A DNA stretch of 64,000 nucleotides from Gammaproteobacteria bacterium (GTDB lineage Bacteria > Pseudomonadota > Gammaproteobacteria > Chromatiales > Chromatiaceae). The first letter of the stretch is position 1, and every line of letters begins with the position of its first letter. The stretch lies in contig JAGRGQ010000013.1 of assembly GCA_020445405.1 (NCBI GenBank), positions 1 through 64,000 of the forward strand. Direction: 5' to 3'. The notes under the pieces are model-generated. The model was not told where the DNA came from. It searched no databases and worked only from the letters and a program-made list of their open reading frames with translations. Shown in pieces: positions 1,860 through 16,077 of the stretch. Position numbers and translations under genes: made by a program.

Positions 1860-3122
1860 TTAAGCAGGCTTATGATCAGGCTTTGTTACGATACGCATGC
1901 CGATCATCAGGTCCATGACGTTTGTGCCGGTAGGGCCGGTATGTATCAAATCGCCGCTGGCTGCGAGCAGCGAACCCGAATCGGCACTGGCCAGAGACCG
2001 CTCCTGGTCGAATCCATGCCGTTTCGCGCGCGCGAGTGTACCGCCATCGACCAATGCACCGGCGTCCGTACCGGGACCGTCGCTGCCATCGGTACCGGCG
2101 GAAAGAAAAAGAATGTCGTCGGCACCCTCGATTACCCCGGCGGCGGAGAGGGCCAGATGCTGATTGCGCCCGCCGCGCCCCGGCTTATCGGGTAGCAGAA
2201 CACTGGGCTCACCACCCCATATGTAGACGCCCGGCAGGCTATCCATCAGTTCCAGCGCCAGTCGTCGTCCCACATTCTCCGCAGTCGCGTTGATAAACGC
2301 ATGGCTTACATGCACGTCGTAGCCGAGCGCCCTGGCCGCTTCTGCCGCGGCCTCCCGTGCATCGCGCAGACTGGCGACGATATGGAGGTCGACAGCGGCA
2401 GGTATCAGCGGTTGGTCCGCATCGCCTGGCGGTATCAAACGGCTTATCCAGTCGGGTAAATTGAGCGAATCGAGCGCTGCTTTGTCACGCTGTTCAGCCA
2501 CCAGCAGCCCGGAACCGATAACCGCCGGATCGTCCCAGCGCACATCGGAGATAAACAACCCGGTTACGCTGCGCGGACCAATATGGCGCAACAGGCGGCC
2601 GCCTTTTATCGCGGATAACGACTTACGCACCAGATTCATTTTCTCAATGGAAAAGCCGCTGCCGAGCAGCCACTGGTTGACACGCTTCAGGTCATCGAGG
2701 CCGATTCCCTGATGCAGCACCTCGACCAGGCTGGAAGTACCGCCCGAAATCAGGAACAGCAGGGCCCGATCCGGGGGCAATTCGGACAGGAAACTGATCA
2801 GCGCCCTCCCTGCGTTCAGGCTGTTTGCGTCGGGAAGCGGATGGCCACCTTCCATTGCCGTCAATCCCCGGGCTTCGAGCGCTGGACGATCCAGATGGCC
2901 GGGCTTGGAGATCACCAACCCGTCAACCAGAGGTCCATCCAGTTTATCGATGGCCCCCAGTGCCATCGCTTCCGCCGCTTTGCCGATCGCCACCACTGAG
3001 CACGCGTGCGTCACAGAATGCTGTGCGAGATACCCCGCTACAGCAGCGCGGCCATCCACCCCAGCCACCCCAGCACTGAAAATCCGCAGCAAATCGCTGC
3101 GCGCTTGTCCGATATTTTTCAT
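1860..3122 (-). CDS. Glycerate 2-kinase (MOFRL family)
   Basis: 420 residues, normal length for the GckA/TtuD family, which phosphorylates D-glycerate to 2-phosphoglycerate in the cytoplasm (serine cycle, glyoxylate or tartrate use, photorespiratory salvage). The N-terminal DUF4147 domain shows VVAIGKAAEAM, ISKPGH, EGGHPLPDANSL and FLISGGTSSLV. The C-terminal MOFRL domain shows GGEPSV, GRGGRNQHLALSAA, FLSAGTDGSDGPGTDAGA and the closing TGPTGTNVMDLMIG. The family was long annotated as hydroxypyruvate reductase, but kinase activity is the established one. The ATG at 3122 is preceded by GGGGTG. It is monocistronic here, with no other glycerate or serine-cycle genes nearby, so the physiological pathway cannot be assigned. 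Confidence 0.9.
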   Translation of the reverse strand: MKNIGQARSDLLRIFSAGVAGVDGRAAVAGYLAQHSVTHACSVVAIGKAAEAMALGAIDKLDGPLVDGLVISKPGHLDRPALEARGLTAMEGGHPLPDANSLNAGRALISFLSELPPDRALLFLISGGTSSLVEVLHQGIGLDDLKRVNQWLLGSGFSIEKMNLVRKSLSAIKGGRLLRHIGPRSVTGLFISDVRWDDPAVIGSGLLVAEQRDKAALDSLNLPDWISRLIPPGDADQPLIPAAVDLHIVASLRDAREAAAEAARALGYDVHVSHAFINATAENVGRRLALELMDSLPGVYIWGGEPSVLLPDKPGRGGRNQHLALSAAGVIEGADDILFLSAGTDGSDGPGTDAGALVDGGTLARAKRHGFDQERSLASADSGSLLAASGDLIHTGPTGTNVMDLMIGMRIVTKPDHKPA

Positions 3123-3426: not shown

Positions 3427-5127
<1,701 letters not shown>

Positions 5128-5270: not shown

Positions 5271-5451
5271 AGCCATCTCATAATCCCTCACGGCGCGACA
5301 GTGGCGGTTCTGGTTCATGGCGCGACGCGGCGCGCGCAGTGTCGCCGAAGCTGCAGCAGCGGGCCGCAAACAAAGCCGGGAGCCAAAACAGCCCGCTCCC
5401 CAAAGGGTTGCGTCAGAGATGCGGTTCGCGGGGATTATGAGATAGGTTCTA
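5271..5451 (+). repeat. MITE-like dispersed repeat, copy A
   Basis: A ~180-bp non-coding element bounded by near-inverted ends: left CCATCTCATAATCCC at 5273 and right GGGATTATGAGATAGG near 5432-5447. Inside it has TGGTTCATGGCGCGA (about 5311), AGCGGGCCGCAAACAAAGCC and CCCCAAAGGGTTG. The same internal order occurs, inverted, at 10981-11248 and 12318-12546. It lies between the chemoreceptor and the motor-like operon and carries no credible gene, which fits a miniature inverted-repeat element mobilised in trans. I cannot identify a target-site duplication by eye. Confidence 0.65.
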
Positions 5452-5517: not shown

Positions 5518-6489
5518 TTGAAGAGCACACTGCAACACCGCCGTTTCAGCCGGAATATCCTGATCGAGATGTGTGTCCTGGGTGTTCTGGTCGGCATACT
5601 GATCGTCTGGCAGTTCGACTTTATCAACAGCGTCTACTTTCAGAATCAGCTGACCCATACCGGCATCGTACTCAACAGCGCAATCATTTCGCTTTTCGCA
5701 CTGGGCGTGCTGCGTATTATCTGGTTGCTGTTCGACTATGCCGGGGAGGAGAACGCCATCCTCAAGGTGATCGATAATATCGAACAGGGTTTCAAACCAT
5801 TGTCTGAGGTCCCGGAAGACAGAATCATTACCCGGCGCTATCACACGATGGAGCAGTTGCACAAAAGCAATACACCCATCAATCACAGCGCCCTCGCATC
5901 GACGCTGGTGGCATCGGAAAGCACCCGCAACAGCTTTCCCAAGTTCATCAATAACATCCTGATCCTGAGCGGCGTGTTCGGTACCATCGTTTCGCTCTCC
6001 ATCGCTCTGGTTGGCGCCTCCGATCTGCTGGAATCGGCGGTTAACATGGGTGGCATGGGAATGGTGGTGCACGGTATGTCCACCGCGCTCTCCACCACCA
6101 TTACCGCGATCTCCTGCTACGTCTATTTCGGTTATTTTTTCCTCAAGCTGACCGATGTCCAGACCAACCTGGTGAGTGCGGTGGAACAACTTACCAGTAA
6201 CCATTTCATGCCGCGTTTCCATATTCAGACGGAAACCGTTCTGCATCAGTTCGCCGACCTGATCCGGACTTTGCAGGAGCTGCTGGGACAGATGAACAGC
6301 TCACAGAAGTCCTACCAGGAACTGGCCGAGGAGATGCGCAACTCGCAGAGCGCGTTCGAAGATCTGGAGACTCGGATCATATCGGCGCTGGTGGACGTTC
6401 ATCGCACCAAGATCCAGCCGATCAACGAGGAGATGAATGACATCAAGCAGCTGCTTCGGCTCGGGTTCCGTCTGCCTGAAGAGCCATGA
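5518..6489 (+). CDS. MotA/TolQ/ExbB-family proton-channel-like protein
   Basis: 323 residues from the preferred TTG start at 5518, which has GAGG eight bases upstream; a longer frame opens at 5461 but lies against the repeat element. Four hydrophobic helices are predicted: two near the N-terminus (IEMCVLGVLVGILIVWQF and NSAIISLFALGVLRIIWLLF), then after a ~75-residue cytoplasmic stretch FINNILILSGVFGTIVSLSI and GMSTALSTTITAISCYVYFG. The last two match the MotA/ExbB core (GT-containing helix, then AL-TT helix). The C-terminal ~90 residues form a probable coiled coil. It overlaps the next gene by 4 bp (ATGA), as expected for two parts of one ion-driven motor. Flagellar, Tol and Ton genes are absent, so the machine it powers is unknown. 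Confidence 0.75.
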   Translation: MKSTLQHRRFSRNILIEMCVLGVLVGILIVWQFDFINSVYFQNQLTHTGIVLNSAIISLFALGVLRIIWLLFDYAGEENAILKVIDNIEQGFKPLSEVPEDRIITRRYHTMEQLHKSNTPINHSALASTLVASESTRNSFPKFINNILILSGVFGTIVSLSIALVGASDLLESAVNMGGMGMVVHGMSTALSTTITAISCYVYFGYFFLKLTDVQTNLVSAVEQLTSNHFMPRFHIQTETVLHQFADLIRTLQELLGQMNSSQKSYQELAEEMRNSQSAFEDLETRIISALVDVHRTKIQPINEEMNDIKQLLRLGFRLPEEP

Positions 6490-7583
6490 GAGCAGACGAG
6501 GCATTCATCGATCTCCGCCTGAATGCTCAGGAGGGGCATAATCAGGAGAGTTTCTGGCCGTCGTTCACCGACATCATGACGGTAGTCGTGATGATTTTCA
6601 TGATCGCCATGGTGGTGCTGCTGTTGCGCAATATCGACCTGGTCAACCAGTTGCGCGCTACCATGACTGCAGAACGGCAGGCGATGGAGCTCGCGCGTTC
6701 GACCGGTGAGGAGAAAGAGAATATTTCGCTGCGGCTGATCGCGGCCGAGAATGAGCTTGCCATTCGGCGGATGCAACAGCAGGAACTGGACGCAGCCAAT
6801 CGAGAGCAGAAGCGTCTTATCATCAATCAGACCGATCTGATCTCCAGATTACAAATGGAGATTGAAACGCTGACCCGTTCCAAGGCACAGCTGGCAACCG
6901 AAAACGAGTCGCTCAGCCAGCGGCTGGAGCGCGCCAACGAGCGCGTGCAGTCGCAGCAACAGGATCAGGTGAGACTGCAGCAGGACCTGTTGTCAACGCG
7001 CCAGCAACTGGAGAGCTCAAAACGTCAGCTGGCCAGCATGGAGCATGACGTCGCCAGCCTGCAGCAGTTGCAGCAGGCGACCCGGAGTGAGTACGACGCA
7101 TTGCAGCAAAGCTTCGAAGAGAGAACCAAAGAGCTGCAGCAGGCGCAAGTCGCCATGCGCAGTTCCGGTTTCAAGCTCAACTCACTGCAGGGTGAATACG
7201 ACAAACTGAAGGTTGAATACGACAAGCTGTTTCGCCCGGCGCGCTCGCCTGAAGGCAGATATCAGGTTATCGTCCGCTATTCGAAGGTGGATGGCGTACC
7301 CAAAATAGAGTTCACGACGGATGTGCTTTCCGGCTACGAAACCATCAGCCGAAGTGAGCTGGAACGGCGGCTCATCCGCCTCAAGGCGGAAAAATCCAAC
7401 GGCCTGTATGTCAAAGTGGTGTTCCCGGAAAACAGCGGTCTGGCATACAACGAAGCCTGGAAATTCACCTCTGAACTGCATGCGCGTTATGATTACTACT
7501 CCCAGCCGGATGCGCCGGATCCGGACCTGCCGCCGGAAAACGGCGAACAGTCGGATCACGCCCCGCCGACGCAGAAACCTTGA
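6486..7583 (+). CDS. MotB/ExbD-like membrane protein with long coiled coil
   Basis: 365 residues. A short cytoplasmic head is followed by a single helix with the MotB/ExbD-type aspartate: PSFTDIMTVVVMIFMIAMVV (Asp ~29). Residues ~60-245 are almost pure heptad-like Glu/Gln/Leu/Arg coiled coil, then a compact domain (~250-345) with GRYQVIVRYSKVDGVPKIEF and SGLAYNEAWKFTSEL, and an acidic Pro-rich tail. No OmpA-type peptidoglycan-binding domain is present, unlike MotB, PomB or ZorB. A fully helical rod of ~185 residues would reach roughly 25 nm, enough to cross the periplasm. Together with the upstream gene it looks like a proton-motive motor with an unfamiliar transmission rod; the function is unknown. 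Confidence 0.65.
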   Translation: MRADEAFIDLRLNAQEGHNQESFWPSFTDIMTVVVMIFMIAMVVLLLRNIDLVNQLRATMTAERQAMELARSTGEEKENISLRLIAAENELAIRRMQQQELDAANREQKRLIINQTDLISRLQMEIETLTRSKAQLATENESLSQRLERANERVQSQQQDQVRLQQDLLSTRQQLESSKRQLASMEHDVASLQQLQQATRSEYDALQQSFEERTKELQQAQVAMRSSGFKLNSLQGEYDKLKVEYDKLFRPARSPEGRYQVIVRYSKVDGVPKIEFTTDVLSGYETISRSELERRLIRLKAEKSNGLYVKVVFPENSGLAYNEAWKFTSELHARYDYYSQPDAPDPDLPPENGEQSDHAPPTQKP

Positions 7584-10980: not shown

Positions 10981-11248
10981 GGAACCTGTCTCACACTCCT
11001 CCGCAAACCGCGTTGGTGTCCGGATGCGTACCTGCGCTGCGCAGCATAAGTACAGCGTGTATGGGCAGACGGCACAAAACAGCAGGGACGCAGCTCGGAC
11101 ACAACCCCGTGGGGGACGGGCGGTTTTGACTGCTGTCTTCGATGCGGTCCGCTTATCCCGCACGGCGACACCACGCCCGCCGCGTTGCGCGATGAACCAA
11201 ATTCGCCGCGGTATCGTCGCGGCCGCGGGGGATCGTGCAGGAGGGTCC
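10981..11248 (-). repeat. MITE-like dispersed repeat, copy B
   Basis: In inverted orientation relative to copy A, this ~268-bp stretch keeps the same landmarks: TTTGGTTCATCGCGCAACGC on the minus strand, a CCCACGGGGTTGTGTCCG block, and GAGTGTGAGACAGGTTCC at one end (compare GATTATGAGATAGGTTCT in copy A). The other end is more diverged. It occupies most of the gap between pcm and the thioredoxin-like gene, and is ~85 bp longer than copy A because of an insertion in its middle. It holds no credible gene. Confidence 0.6.
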
Positions 11249-12317: not shown

Positions 12318-12546
12318 GGCCTATCCCACAAGCCCGCGCGAACCGCGTTGCGGTCCGGAATGCGTCCCCGTAAGGCGCGCTGCGCAACACAGCGGGCAGG
12401 GACGCTTCGGACACAACCCCTTGGGGAACAGACGATTTCTGGCCACCGGCTTGGTTGCCGCCCGCTGGTGTAGCACCGGCTGCAGTGCGCTCGCAGATCG
12501 CGCCATGAACCAAAATCGCCACGGTCGCAGCCGTGGGAGATAGGCG
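12318..12546 (-). repeat. MITE-like dispersed repeat, copy C
   Basis: This copy exactly fills the space between the stop codons of two convergent genes. The ends are GGCCTATCCCACAAGCCCG on the left and CCGTGGGAGATAGGC on the right, so they are near-inverted. Inside, read on the minus strand, lie TTTTGGTTCATGGCGCGA, AGCGGGCGGCAACCAAGCC and TCCCCAAGGGGTTGTG, in the order seen in copy A. It may have come to act as a two-way transcription barrier, but no T-run is present. Confidence 0.65.
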
Positions 12547-14682
12547 CTAGCCTGTTTCCGGCAGCCGCTGGTCGGTGTCCGCCCGGTGTTCCGGAAAAGA
12601 GATTCGAAACTCAGCGCCCGGATCGCGGTTGACCACATCCACCCGAGCATTCATGGCGAGAACCAGTTGATGCACCAGCGCCAGACCAATGCCTGTTCCG
12701 ACGGTTTCGCGTGTCAGTTCGCTCTCGCTGCGATAGAACATGCGGAAGATCTTTTTCGCCTGGTTTCTCGCCACGCCCGGGCCATGGTCCCGCACCGACA
12801 GCCGAATTCGCCCCTCCGGTTCGAGCCGGCAGCGCACTTCAATCAGCTTTTGCGCTGCCTTGGCCGAGAACTTGATGGCGTTGTCGACGAGATTGATCAT
12901 CACCTGGGTCAGACAATCCGCATCCACCAGAATCCGGCTGGCTGAAGCCTGCGGCTCGCAATTCAACTCAAGGGTAAAACCGGCATGTTCCGCCTGTGAG
13001 ATCAGGCGTGGACCTATCTCTTCCATCAGACCGGCTATCACTCTGGATTCAACTTCGATCCGCGCTTCGTTGCGATTCATTCTCGCCAGTTGCAGCACAT
13101 TGTCGATCAGGCGCGAAAGCCGTTCGCCTTCGCTGGCAATGTAGCGGTAATAGGTTTGCCGTTTCGCCTCGCTTACCCACCCTGCCATCAGCATCTCTCC
13201 GTACATGCGAATCGATGTCAGCGGCGTCCTGAGTTCATGACTGACCGCCGACACGAAATCCTGCTGTTGACGCGCCAGTTCAATCTGTCCAATACCCAAT
13301 CGATACATCAGCAGAAAACCACCGCAGAGCGTCACCAGCAGGATGCCGGAAGTCCATAGGATGATGGACCCTTCGGTACCGGAAGGCAGGCTGGTAATGC
13401 TGAAAATCAGATCCAATCCATCCAGTGGTGCCGACAAGGCCTTGCGGAAAAGCAGCGAGCCCTGGAAATCCTCGTTGCCGGAAAAATAACCGCGCCCACC
13501 GGCCGCACTAAAAACGGAGAGCAGATCACCCCGGTAAGCGACCAGCAGATCGCTCATCCCCGACAGCGTTCCCTCAAGGAACATGGAACGGATAACTTCC
13601 TGCAAGAAAGGCTGTTGAGCGATTACAATTCCCTGAATATAGCGTTTCCCATCACGCCAGACTTTGCGAAACATAACGAATTGTCCGCTGTCGAGCAGAC
13701 TTAATTGATAGGGGTCCAGCTCGCTTTCAAATATCCTGACCGGTACGCCGGAAAGCGGACGATACTCCTTACCCGGTGTATCCCGCGATACGGGCGCGGC
13801 GGGCAGCGGCAGAGCGCTGCGTTCCTTGCGTGCGCGCTTTTCGGAGGACGGTGACAGAAGTTCGGATTCCCCACCCGCCGTCTTCCCGGCGCCCGACTGA
13901 AACTTCTCGTCCAGCTTCAGATCCTCCACCCGTCCGAGCACCCCCGCCCGCTGTGCCGCATTGCTCTTCTGGCCGACGACTGCCGATTTCTCCAAAAGAT
14001 CGAACGCCGCCTGTGCCTGAACCTCCGCCTTGGCGGGCGGTGCCGTCAATCTGGATTCACCACGGCTGCCGGAGATATCGGAGGACCCGCCTGCAGCCAC
14101 GCTGTCCCGCTGCGCCGCATCCCGGCCGGCATCGCCCGATGCCGCGTAGTCACTCCGTGCATCGGTCTCCCGCGTCTCAGGCACCAAACGGTTGCTGCTC
14201 AGGATATGCTGTATTCGCAGCGACAGCGCCAGCCGCTGCCGATACTCGGGTTCCGGAATACCGTAGATTGACGCATTGCCTTCTGCTGCCGGCAGCAGCG
14301 GCGTGCTGAAGCGCCCTTCGGCATCTATCTGAAAATAGCCGATCAAGCCGGGAATTTCGGACTTCACCGGGAAGACGGCAAGTGCCGAACGCTGCAGAAA
14401 ATTCGCCGTGGTATCACCCAGTACATTGAGAAACGAAAAATCGGTGAAAGGCCGCTCCTCCTCGGTTTTCACCAGCTGCTGGTAGCGCTTGTCAATACGG
14501 GCCGCCAACTCTTCGGCCAGAATCCGGTGCCGATGAATCACCTCCCATTTCAATTCCGAGTAAGCCTGCCGAACCAGCACAGCGGCGGGAACAGCAAGCG
14601 CCAGAAAAAAGAGCAGCAGCCAGCGTTGCAGCCGCTTTCTATCCAGCCCGGCAGCTGCACTTCGACCCGGCATGCCGGTCAC
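12547..14682 (-). CDS. Sensor histidine kinase with large low-complexity sensor region
   Basis: 711 residues, much longer than a typical EnvZ-type kinase. A helix at ~20-40 and another at ~440-460 bracket a ~400-residue presumed periplasmic region whose middle (~170-315) is Ala/Gly/Ser/Glu-rich and probably disordered. The catalytic part has the H-box FVSAVSHELRTPLTSIRMYG, N-box QVMINLVDNAIKFS, G1 RDHGPGVA and G2 GTGIGLALVHQL. It lacks an evident HAMP domain. The start overlaps the response-regulator stop by 4 bp, so the pair is translationally coupled. The divergent PspA-like/VWA operon is the obvious target candidate (inference). Confidence 0.9.
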   Translation of the reverse strand: MTGMPGRSAAAGLDRKRLQRWLLLFFLALAVPAAVLVRQAYSELKWEVIHRHRILAEELAARIDKRYQQLVKTEEERPFTDFSFLNVLGDTTANFLQRSALAVFPVKSEIPGLIGYFQIDAEGRFSTPLLPAAEGNASIYGIPEPEYRQRLALSLRIQHILSSNRLVPETRETDARSDYAASGDAGRDAAQRDSVAAGGSSDISGSRGESRLTAPPAKAEVQAQAAFDLLEKSAVVGQKSNAAQRAGVLGRVEDLKLDEKFQSGAGKTAGGESELLSPSSEKRARKERSALPLPAAPVSRDTPGKEYRPLSGVPVRIFESELDPYQLSLLDSGQFVMFRKVWRDGKRYIQGIVIAQQPFLQEVIRSMFLEGTLSGMSDLLVAYRGDLLSVFSAAGGRGYFSGNEDFQGSLLFRKALSAPLDGLDLIFSITSLPSGTEGSIILWTSGILLVTLCGGFLLMYRLGIGQIELARQQQDFVSAVSHELRTPLTSIRMYGEMLMAGWVSEAKRQTYYRYIASEGERLSRLIDNVLQLARMNRNEARIEVESRVIAGLMEEIGPRLISQAEHAGFTLELNCEPQASASRILVDADCLTQVMINLVDNAIKFSAKAAQKLIEVRCRLEPEGRIRLSVRDHGPGVARNQAKKIFRMFYRSESELTRETVGTGIGLALVHQLVLAMNARVDVVNRDPGAEFRISFPEHRADTDQRLPETG

Positions 14683-15383
14683 GCTTCCGTCAGCAGACGA
14701 TAACCGGCACCGCGCACCGTCACCAGGTAACGGGGCTGTGCCGGATCGGGCTCGATCTTACGTCTCAGCTTGGCAATATGTATATCGACGGTGCGCGTCT
14801 CCAGGCCGAGATTTTTCCCATAACCCCAAACCTTGTTCAACAGCTCTTCGCGCGATACGGGACGCGCTGAGTTGGCGCGCAAATAGTGAAGAATATCCAC
14901 CTCTTTGCGTGTGAACCCGATCCTCCGCCCGCCTGACAGACCGCAAAGATTGAGACAATCCACATCACAGTAATCGCCAAGCCGGATTGTGTGCTGCAGC
15001 TGCTGGCCTGCGTGCGCGCGCCTCAGCACCGCTTTCACCCGCAGCACCAGCTGTGTGACGGAAAAAGGCTTGGCGACATAATCATCGGCGCCAAGGGTGA
15101 GCCCCCGGATAATCTCTTCGTCTCCGGACTTGGCGGTCAGCATGATTATCGGCTGTTCCGGATCAACGGCGCGCAGTCTGTCGCAAACCTCGAACCCGTC
15201 CATACCGGGGAGCATTATGTCGAGAAGTACCAGCTCAAAGCCCCCGGTAAGTGCCTTTTCGAGACCGGAGACACCATCCGCTGCAGTATCGACCGCATAA
15301 CCGTGATACAGGAAAACATCCGCCAGCCCATTGCGGATAGCCGCTTCATCTTCAATTATCAAAATGCCTGTCTTTCTCTGCAT
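14679..15383 (-). CDS. OmpR-family response regulator
   Basis: 234 residues, usual size. The receiver domain (1-~115) has the acidic pair IIEDEAAI, phospho-acceptor LVLLDIMLPGMDGFEV (Asp ~54), MLTAKS with the switch Thr and DDYVAKPFS with the conserved Lys. The C-terminal winged helix shows FTRKEVDILHYL, VSREELLNKVWGYGKNLGLE, TRTVDIHIAKLRRKIE and the terminal GAGYRL. It is co-transcribed with the downstream kinase (overlapping stop/start) and is divergent from the PspA-like operon across a 157-bp shared control region. DNA sites for it cannot be defined from sequence alone. Confidence 0.95.
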   Translation of the reverse strand: MQRKTGILIIEDEAAIRNGLADVFLYHGYAVDTAADGVSGLEKALTGGFELVLLDIMLPGMDGFEVCDRLRAVDPEQPIIMLTAKSGDEEIIRGLTLGADDYVAKPFSVTQLVLRVKAVLRRAHAGQQLQHTIRLGDYCDVDCLNLCGLSGGRRIGFTRKEVDILHYLRANSARPVSREELLNKVWGYGKNLGLETRTVDIHIAKLRRKIEPDPAQPRYLVTVRGAGYRLLTEA

Positions 15384-15540: not shown

Positions 15541-16077
15541 ATGGCACTGATCAGACGCGTTTCAACTCTTCTGCGGGCAGACCTGCACGCGCTGCTCGAC
15601 CAGCTGGAGGAACCCGAAACTCTGCTGCGCCAGGCTATGCGCGAAATGGAGGAGAGCCTGGCGAGAGATAAACAGGCCTGCAAACACCTTTTGCACGAGC
15701 AGGAGATGCTAGAGCAGCGTGAGCAGGAGATCAGGAAGTCGTTCACCAACGGCGGCGATGAACTGGACCTCTGTTTCGAAAGCGGCCAGGAGGCACTCGC
15801 CAGGGATCTGATCAGGCGCCGGCTGGAAGCCGCGGGTTTAGCAAAAGCCCTTGCGGCAAAACGCAGCAGACTGGCGACGCACTGCGCTGAACTCAAGGCT
15901 GCGATCGAACAGAACCAATCCCGCCTGGAGGATATCCGTCAGAAGAGTGAACTGCTCTGCGTGGAGACGACCCACAGGCGTTCGCAAGAGGAGTGGCCGG
16001 CCATGGAGGTTCAAATCCGGGAGCAGGAGGTGGAGTTGGAACTACTGAAGGAGAAGCAGAAGCGAGGTTTGTCATGA
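15541..16077 (+). CDS. PspA/IM30-like coiled-coil protein
   Basis: 178 residues, shorter than true PspA (~220). The N-terminal MALIRRVSTLLRADLHALLDQ followed by EEPETLLRQAMREMEESL resembles the amphipathic start and first helix of PspA/IM30 (FSRxxDIxxANxNALLDxxEDP...). The rest is almost continuous charged coiled coil. Family members bind the inner face of the cytoplasmic membrane and protect it under stress. The start has a very good AGGAGG site nine bases upstream. It overlaps the next gene by 4 bp and is divergent from a two-component system, which suggests stress-regulated expression (inference). PspF/PspB/PspC are not present. Confidence 0.75.
   Translation: MALIRRVSTLLRADLHALLDQLEEPETLLRQAMREMEESLARDKQACKHLLHEQEMLEQREQEIRKSFTNGGDELDLCFESGQEALARDLIRRRLEAAGLAKALAAKRSRLATHCAELKAAIEQNQSRLEDIRQKSELLCVETTHRRSQEEWPAMEVQIREQEVELELLKEKQKRGLS

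Follow-up and report, generated by a model that had tools for sequence, protein, structure and literature searches.

A widespread gene pair of the MotA/ExbB motor class with a coiled coil of variable length, nearly always in one heptad register, and a predicted TolR/ExbD-like head

The DNA analysed here (the window) comprises the first 64,000 nucleotides of contig JAGRGQ010000013.1 of a Gammaproteobacteria bacterium placed in the Chromatiaceae. At 5518..7583 it carries two overlapping genes, here called A and B, which an earlier note made from the sequence alone had pointed out and which were confirmed. They belong to a real, widespread family, apparently undescribed so far, and form a variant of the MotA/ExbB motor class. 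The new observation is that the distance in B between the membrane aspartate (Asp) and the C-terminal head varies over a wide range, yet keeps a single heptad register in nearly all homologues. The TTG start of gene A was adopted because relatives of the same length support it. The features of the pair, with predicted transmembrane (TM) helices and model confidence as predicted local distance difference test (pLDDT) scores, are as follows.

5518..6489, + strand: gene A, MotA/TolQ/ExbB-type subunit, 323 amino acids, TTG start (sequence, fold and profile comparisons)
5545..5733, + strand: A residues 10-72, predicted TM1-TM2 hairpin (model helices 10-31 and 47-90; exact TM ends inferred)
5932..6153, + strand: A residues 139-212, predicted TM3-TM4 core with the motifs G-V-F-G-T-I and H-G-M-S-T-A-L-S-T-T (conservation, profile comparison)
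6154..6468, + strand: A residues 213-317, predicted long cytoplasmic helix or tail (model; membrane side presumed by homology)
6463..6477, + strand: A residues 316-320, tail-tip motif GFRL(P) (homologue comparison)
6486..6489, + strand: ATGA overlap of the stop of A with the start of B (sequence)
6486..7583, + strand: gene B, TM helix, coiled-coil shaft and predicted TolR/ExbD-like head, 365 amino acids (sequence, predicted model)
6552..6635, + strand: B residues 23-50, FWPSFTD motif and single membrane helix (14 of 28 columns invariant; model confidence low, block pLDDT 43-62)
6570..6572, + strand: codon GAC of Asp29, the expected ion-binding residue (homologue alignment)
6636..7232, + strand: B residues 51-249, proline-free heptad coiled coil or shaft, about 29 nm if straight (model, register and proline counts)
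7233..7499, + strand: B residues 250-338, RPAR motif and predicted TolR/ExbD-like head, b-b-b-a-b-a (conservation, predicted model)

Subunit A scored 16.7 bits against the Pfam family MotA_ExbB (PF01618), below the cut-off of 22.9, and was linked to it by profile-profile comparison (E 2.6e-5). Its predicted model has an ExbB/TolQ-like fold that also fits ZorA; neither A nor B matched any of the sequences of solved structures. Conservation in A peaks in TM3-TM4, where 39 of the 72 columns from residue 141 to 212 are invariant. The tail tip near the C terminus reads GFRL in 176 of 178 homologues and GFRI in one, and is absent in one partial record. Heptad locking of the A tail was considered and rejected, as two lengths 15 residues apart, 116 (79 sequences) and 131 (71), dominate among the 162 of 178 tails measured.

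In subunit B, Asp29 is invariant in all 58 proteins aligned and an aspartate is retained in 171 of 172 in a wider set. The B protein of locus L040 has Gly in its place (FTGIM), with the coil and the PAR motif still there. The chain is predicted as one helix from residue 29 to 249, at low confidence up to residue 80 (pLDDT 51-60 for residues 51-80). The ends of B are conserved and its middle is freer, the mean majority fraction being 0.91 in the membrane helix, 0.84 in residues 51-80, 0.44 in the coil (81-240) and 0.67 in the head. The top structural matches of the modelled head are the periplasmic domains of TolR and ExbD; profile comparison gave no sequence proof of this identity. No Pfam domain was found in B above cut-off and OmpA gave no Pfam match, with a profile E value of 0.25 that is no better than that of the reversed control (0.084). 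Against the PRK09040 and PRK09039 models B reached 18.5 and 15.8 bits (cut-offs 194 and 305), their C-terminal part being unmatched. The channel of MotA/ExbB type, the MotB/ExbD-type Asp helix, the long coil and the missing OmpA domain described in the earlier note were thus all upheld. Its phrase "without a peptidoglycan-binding domain" finds no support in that form, since the head best matches TolR/ExbD and peptidoglycan binding is reported for TolR in the available part of PMC4646322.

For the register, the distance separating the membrane Asp from the PAR (or PSR) motif of the head was determined. The 177 B proteins consisted of 120 database matches and 57 loci, and 176 were measured, the headless protein of locus L260 being left out. 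Spacings ranged from 173 to 572 residues, and 170 of the 176 fell in one register modulo 7. Five (L044, L231, L247, L251 and L252) share a second register offset by 4, corresponding to a stutter, and one (L263) is odd. The main register takes in every one of the 120 database matches; of the 56 loci, a more divergent set, 50 follow it, and removal of identical rows (seven identical pairs) leaves 163 of 169 in it. Not one proline occurs in the coil segment of 172 proteins. A core stripe of Ile, Leu, Val and Met keeps to two phases, counted from the Asp, throughout the final four fifths of the shaft; in the initial fifth one of these phases is displaced by one. Of the 13 blocks of the 544-residue shaft of L242, 11 have the two phases in the lead, as have two of the five blocks of B in the window.

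Because the B sequences are related, the count was repeated on the A tree of 56 loci, which requires at least 33 changes of length and five changes of register modulo 7. Moduli 3-6 and 8-11 need 22-32 changes and modulus 14 needs 19. In the ExbD/TolR control, the spacing of two conserved Asp columns (29 of 31 sequences, range 82-101) showed no register. The PRK09039 sister family, intended as a negative control, was dropped as such, since the same kind of register was found there: 23 of 28 in one register, four in a second and one other (28 of 29 loci usable). The rule is therefore common to the coil-shafted motors of this branch and not restricted to A/B. Flagellar MotB was also dropped as a negative control, with two usable sequences only, and internal duplication as the origin of long shafts found no backing, with no self-matches at E 1e-3 in the eight shafts tested. 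There is a precedent for coil length and phase mattering to force, as the arms of SMC proteins function only at certain lengths (available part of PMC5344682). Length change by whole heptads together with the lack of proline indicates, at the level of sequence, a continuous canonical rod; the heptad-wise change supports such a coil without proving rotation.

Across the B proteins the coil is 145 to 544 residues long. At the coiled-coil rise of 0.1485 nm per residue, 170 of the 176 spacings correspond to 21.5-33 nm and the six others to 40.8-80.8 nm. Related A subunits within a single family (f52) go with shafts of about 24, 68 and 81 nm. The ordinary periplasm is too narrow for the long outlier shafts to stand upright. 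The cell wall lies about 9 nm from the inner membrane according to the available part of PMC12905483, and shafts of about 22-33 nm would therefore place the head in the distal periplasm.

In the protein database at least 2637 matches to A and at least 1427 to B were obtained at E<=1e-3, mostly unnamed, and the best 120 of each were used; named organisms with matches include Sedimenticola, Thiodiazotropha and the Solemya velesiana symbiont. Among 321 Gammaproteobacteria genomes A was found in 49 (E<=1e-10) and B (below 1e-10) in exactly these genomes. Only weaker B matches occurred in 57 further genomes of the class; nearly all of those listed cover the coil part alone, and they are read as generic coiled coils. 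In the phylum sample A was present in 28 of 398 genomes, namely that of the window and 27 that come from two non-gammaproteobacterial families; one of these families is assigned to the Zetaproteobacteria, an identical A protein having been recorded under that name. The pair is thus conserved across Gammaproteobacteria and Zetaproteobacteria. No match to A at E 1e-5 was found among 72,556 plasmid and 50,697 phage records, and no publication in the open-licence literature was recognised as describing the pair. Deviations were seen in two genomes, both from a single family that is not part of the class: in L260 B stops after the coil and lacks the head, and in L261 an intact A has no recognisable B beside it, TAG being the normal stop after GFRL in the A gene of that genome. 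B may have been lost or replaced in these two genomes.

The arrangement of the two genes is stable. B directly follows A in 53 of the 54 loci listed out of 58 A-bearing loci examined, many of which are interrupted by contig ends, and the gap is -4 in 29 of the 53 A-B loci listed; both genes are also present in three further loci and in the window. No constant third gene was found, the biggest other neighbour cluster occurring in 10 of the 58 loci. The label "orphan" in the earlier note therefore holds for the neighbourhood and fails for the family, in view of the conservation of the pair.

By Pfam, the genes upstream of A in the window, on the opposite strand, encode a Cache-type chemoreceptor (3427-5064) and a glycerate kinase (1860-3122), the former lying between the latter and A, and an MFS transporter is encoded downstream of B. 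In several relatives glycerate kinase directly adjoins A. No tol or ton gene was seen among the Pfam-scanned neighbours of the window or, read by eye, among the recurring clusters of the 58 loci; neighbours occurring at single loci outside the window were left out of the annotation. The absence of a named system beside the pair, also stated earlier, was borne out. Glycerate kinase and the neighbours which we take from their sequences to be MiaE-like, TsaB, HisB, LpxL, RmuC and MlaC-like (the window's glycerate kinase is not a matter of such reading) were rejected as partners, none occurring in more than 10 of 58 loci, and recurring neighbours of this frequency are therefore regarded as conserved synteny and not as functional links. 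Tandem matches to Slp-family outer-membrane lipoproteins lie at 5-274 and 318-848 of the window, the first a partial match to the family model, and Slp genes occur near A-B in four of 58 loci including this one. Slp was the protein examined for genome-wide co-occurrence with A, distant partners otherwise lying outside the search, and it was rejected as a constant partner, being present, within the class sample, in 10 of 49 genomes with A and in 71 of 272 without it (Fisher p 0.48). Elsewhere in the window a 31-nt inverted repeat pair (90%) lies at 5295-5325 and 12498-12528, its first arm just 5' of gene A, and a 32-nt direct pair (84%) at 11095-11126 and 12407-12438. A PspA/IM30-family gene (15541-16077) adjoins a two-component pair (12547-15383).

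The nearest relatives of A/B are pairs of the PRK09039 type (NCBIfam NF006543, "peptidoglycan-binding protein"), which likewise have a MotA-like gene upstream. Their A subunits are homologous to A over nearly the full length (E 3.7e-10 over 313 columns) and form the neighbouring clade in the A tree, and the partners share the WPGFVD/WPSFTD Asp helix and a long coil in heptad register. Their coil ends in an OmpA domain, whereas in B a TolR/ExbD-like head, as predicted, replaces this anchor. One such pair is present in the same genome (C188:17090-18940; L007 and L288), comprising a MotA-like gene and a 425-amino-acid TM-coil-OmpA protein with its shaft in the main register of the PRK09039 family. 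No functional study of that family was found in the open-licence literature.

TolQR and ExbBD share with the pair the fold of A and, at the level of predicted models, that of the B head, but A has four predicted TM helices, the locus differs, and the linker of ExbD/TolR is disordered and only about 20 residues long (available part of PMC12905483) against a coil of 145-544 residues here. MotAB and PomAB, relatives of which are covered by a 2025 mBio survey (PMC12505986, available part), have the same gene order, four predicted TM helices in A and the Asp helix in B. They differ in that the B coil lacks proline, the plug and linker of MotB being richer in Gly and Pro (same part of that source). 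Further differences from MotAB are that no OmpA domain was found in B and no flagellar gene is adjacent. The A tree also sets A apart from the PF01618 rows, including L004-L006, which we take to be MotA. Relative to ZorAB, the predicted tail of A is much shorter, counting about 105 residues where ZorA has several hundred (available part of PMC11890865); no OmpA domain was found in B, other genes are adjacent, and plasmid and phage matches are missing. The genes adjoining the pair, the transporter and the chemoreceptor, were identified by Pfam and not scanned with PADLOC, and zorC, zorD and zorE are not among them. Matches of A to Zorya profiles are weak (PADLOC ZorA3 E 0.017; NCBIfam ZorA 14.7 bits against 250), and the ZorA1 genome search matched no genome, controls included, and is hence uninformative. 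GldLM resembles the pair in that its axle protein also extends far through the periplasm, the shaft of GldM measuring 18 nm (available part of PMC9389320), but that shaft consists of four domains and that of B of a single predicted helix per chain. The earlier note had named, as evidence against its idea, an OmpA or ExbD domain of a named system on B homologues; an ExbD/TolR-like domain does seem to be present on B, while a recognised Tol, Ton or Zorya locus is not. The idea of that note that force is passed on to something other than peptidoglycan may still hold.

Taken together, A and B probably form an ion-driven rotary motor of the inner membrane, of the MotA/ExbB class. By analogy with MotAB, TolQR and ZorAB, five A subunits would surround two B subunits with the B head in the periplasm, and ion flow past Asp29 would turn the A ring relative to the B dimer. 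The two membrane helices of B would run on into a rigid parallel coiled-coil shaft ending in the TolR/ExbD-like head. Judging from shaft length, whatever the head grips would most likely lie on the outside of the wall or at the outer membrane, and torque, or the reaction to it, would be passed along the stiff shaft between there and the inner membrane. Facing the cytoplasm, the ring of A subunits would bear a five-helix tail whose conserved GFRL tip could act on a partner. That the whole is instead a structural or sensory envelope tether that has lost its ion channel function is very improbable: no phenotype is known and one homologue has Gly for Asp, but Asp is kept in nearly all others and TM3-TM4 is the best conserved part of A.

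The shaft is favoured as the force-bearing element. As a tentative proposal, it would be a drive shaft and not an anchor, the axle running on as a phase-locked rod of whole heptads, about 22-33 nm and up to about 81 nm in some lineages as calculated from sequence, so as to rotate a TolR-like tool, or exert torque on it, at the outer wall or outer membrane. The opposite arrangement, Zorya-like, is doubtful: the head would anchor B to peptidoglycan as a rigid spacer while the A ring and its GFRL-tipped tail move and act on a cytoplasmic partner. The predicted tail with its conserved tip, the fit of A to ZorA, the peptidoglycan binding reported for TolR and the existence of OmpA-ended relatives with long shafts all speak for it. 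A shaft of 22-81 nm is not required, however, to reach a wall about 9 nm away, the adjoining genes are not Zorya genes, the PADLOC matches are weak and partial, and the tail shows no heptad lock. A divergent Tol/Ton energiser, in which a unit of ExbBD/TolQR type drives a TonB- or TolA-like protein encoded elsewhere and the coil is a long linker, is improbable, although the predicted folds of the head and of A would suit it. A groups with the PRK09039 partners apart from 35 PF01618 proteins (split 98, long branches present), tol and ton genes are missing from the neighbourhoods read, and a proline-free coil takes the place of the unstructured linker. The genome moreover already holds ExbB/TolQ-type beside ExbD/TolR-type genes on three contigs (C111, C221 and C252).

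If the shaft does deliver power to a distal head, no description of such a mode for Tol, Ton, Mot or Zorya has come to our notice. With only two genes the pair is compact; it is also widespread and unnamed, its motor ends and head being conserved and its rod free except for the heptad register. As such it offers a natural ruler for a long-standing question about 5:2 ion-driven motors, namely in what way rotation is carried across the periplasm and which subunit turns.
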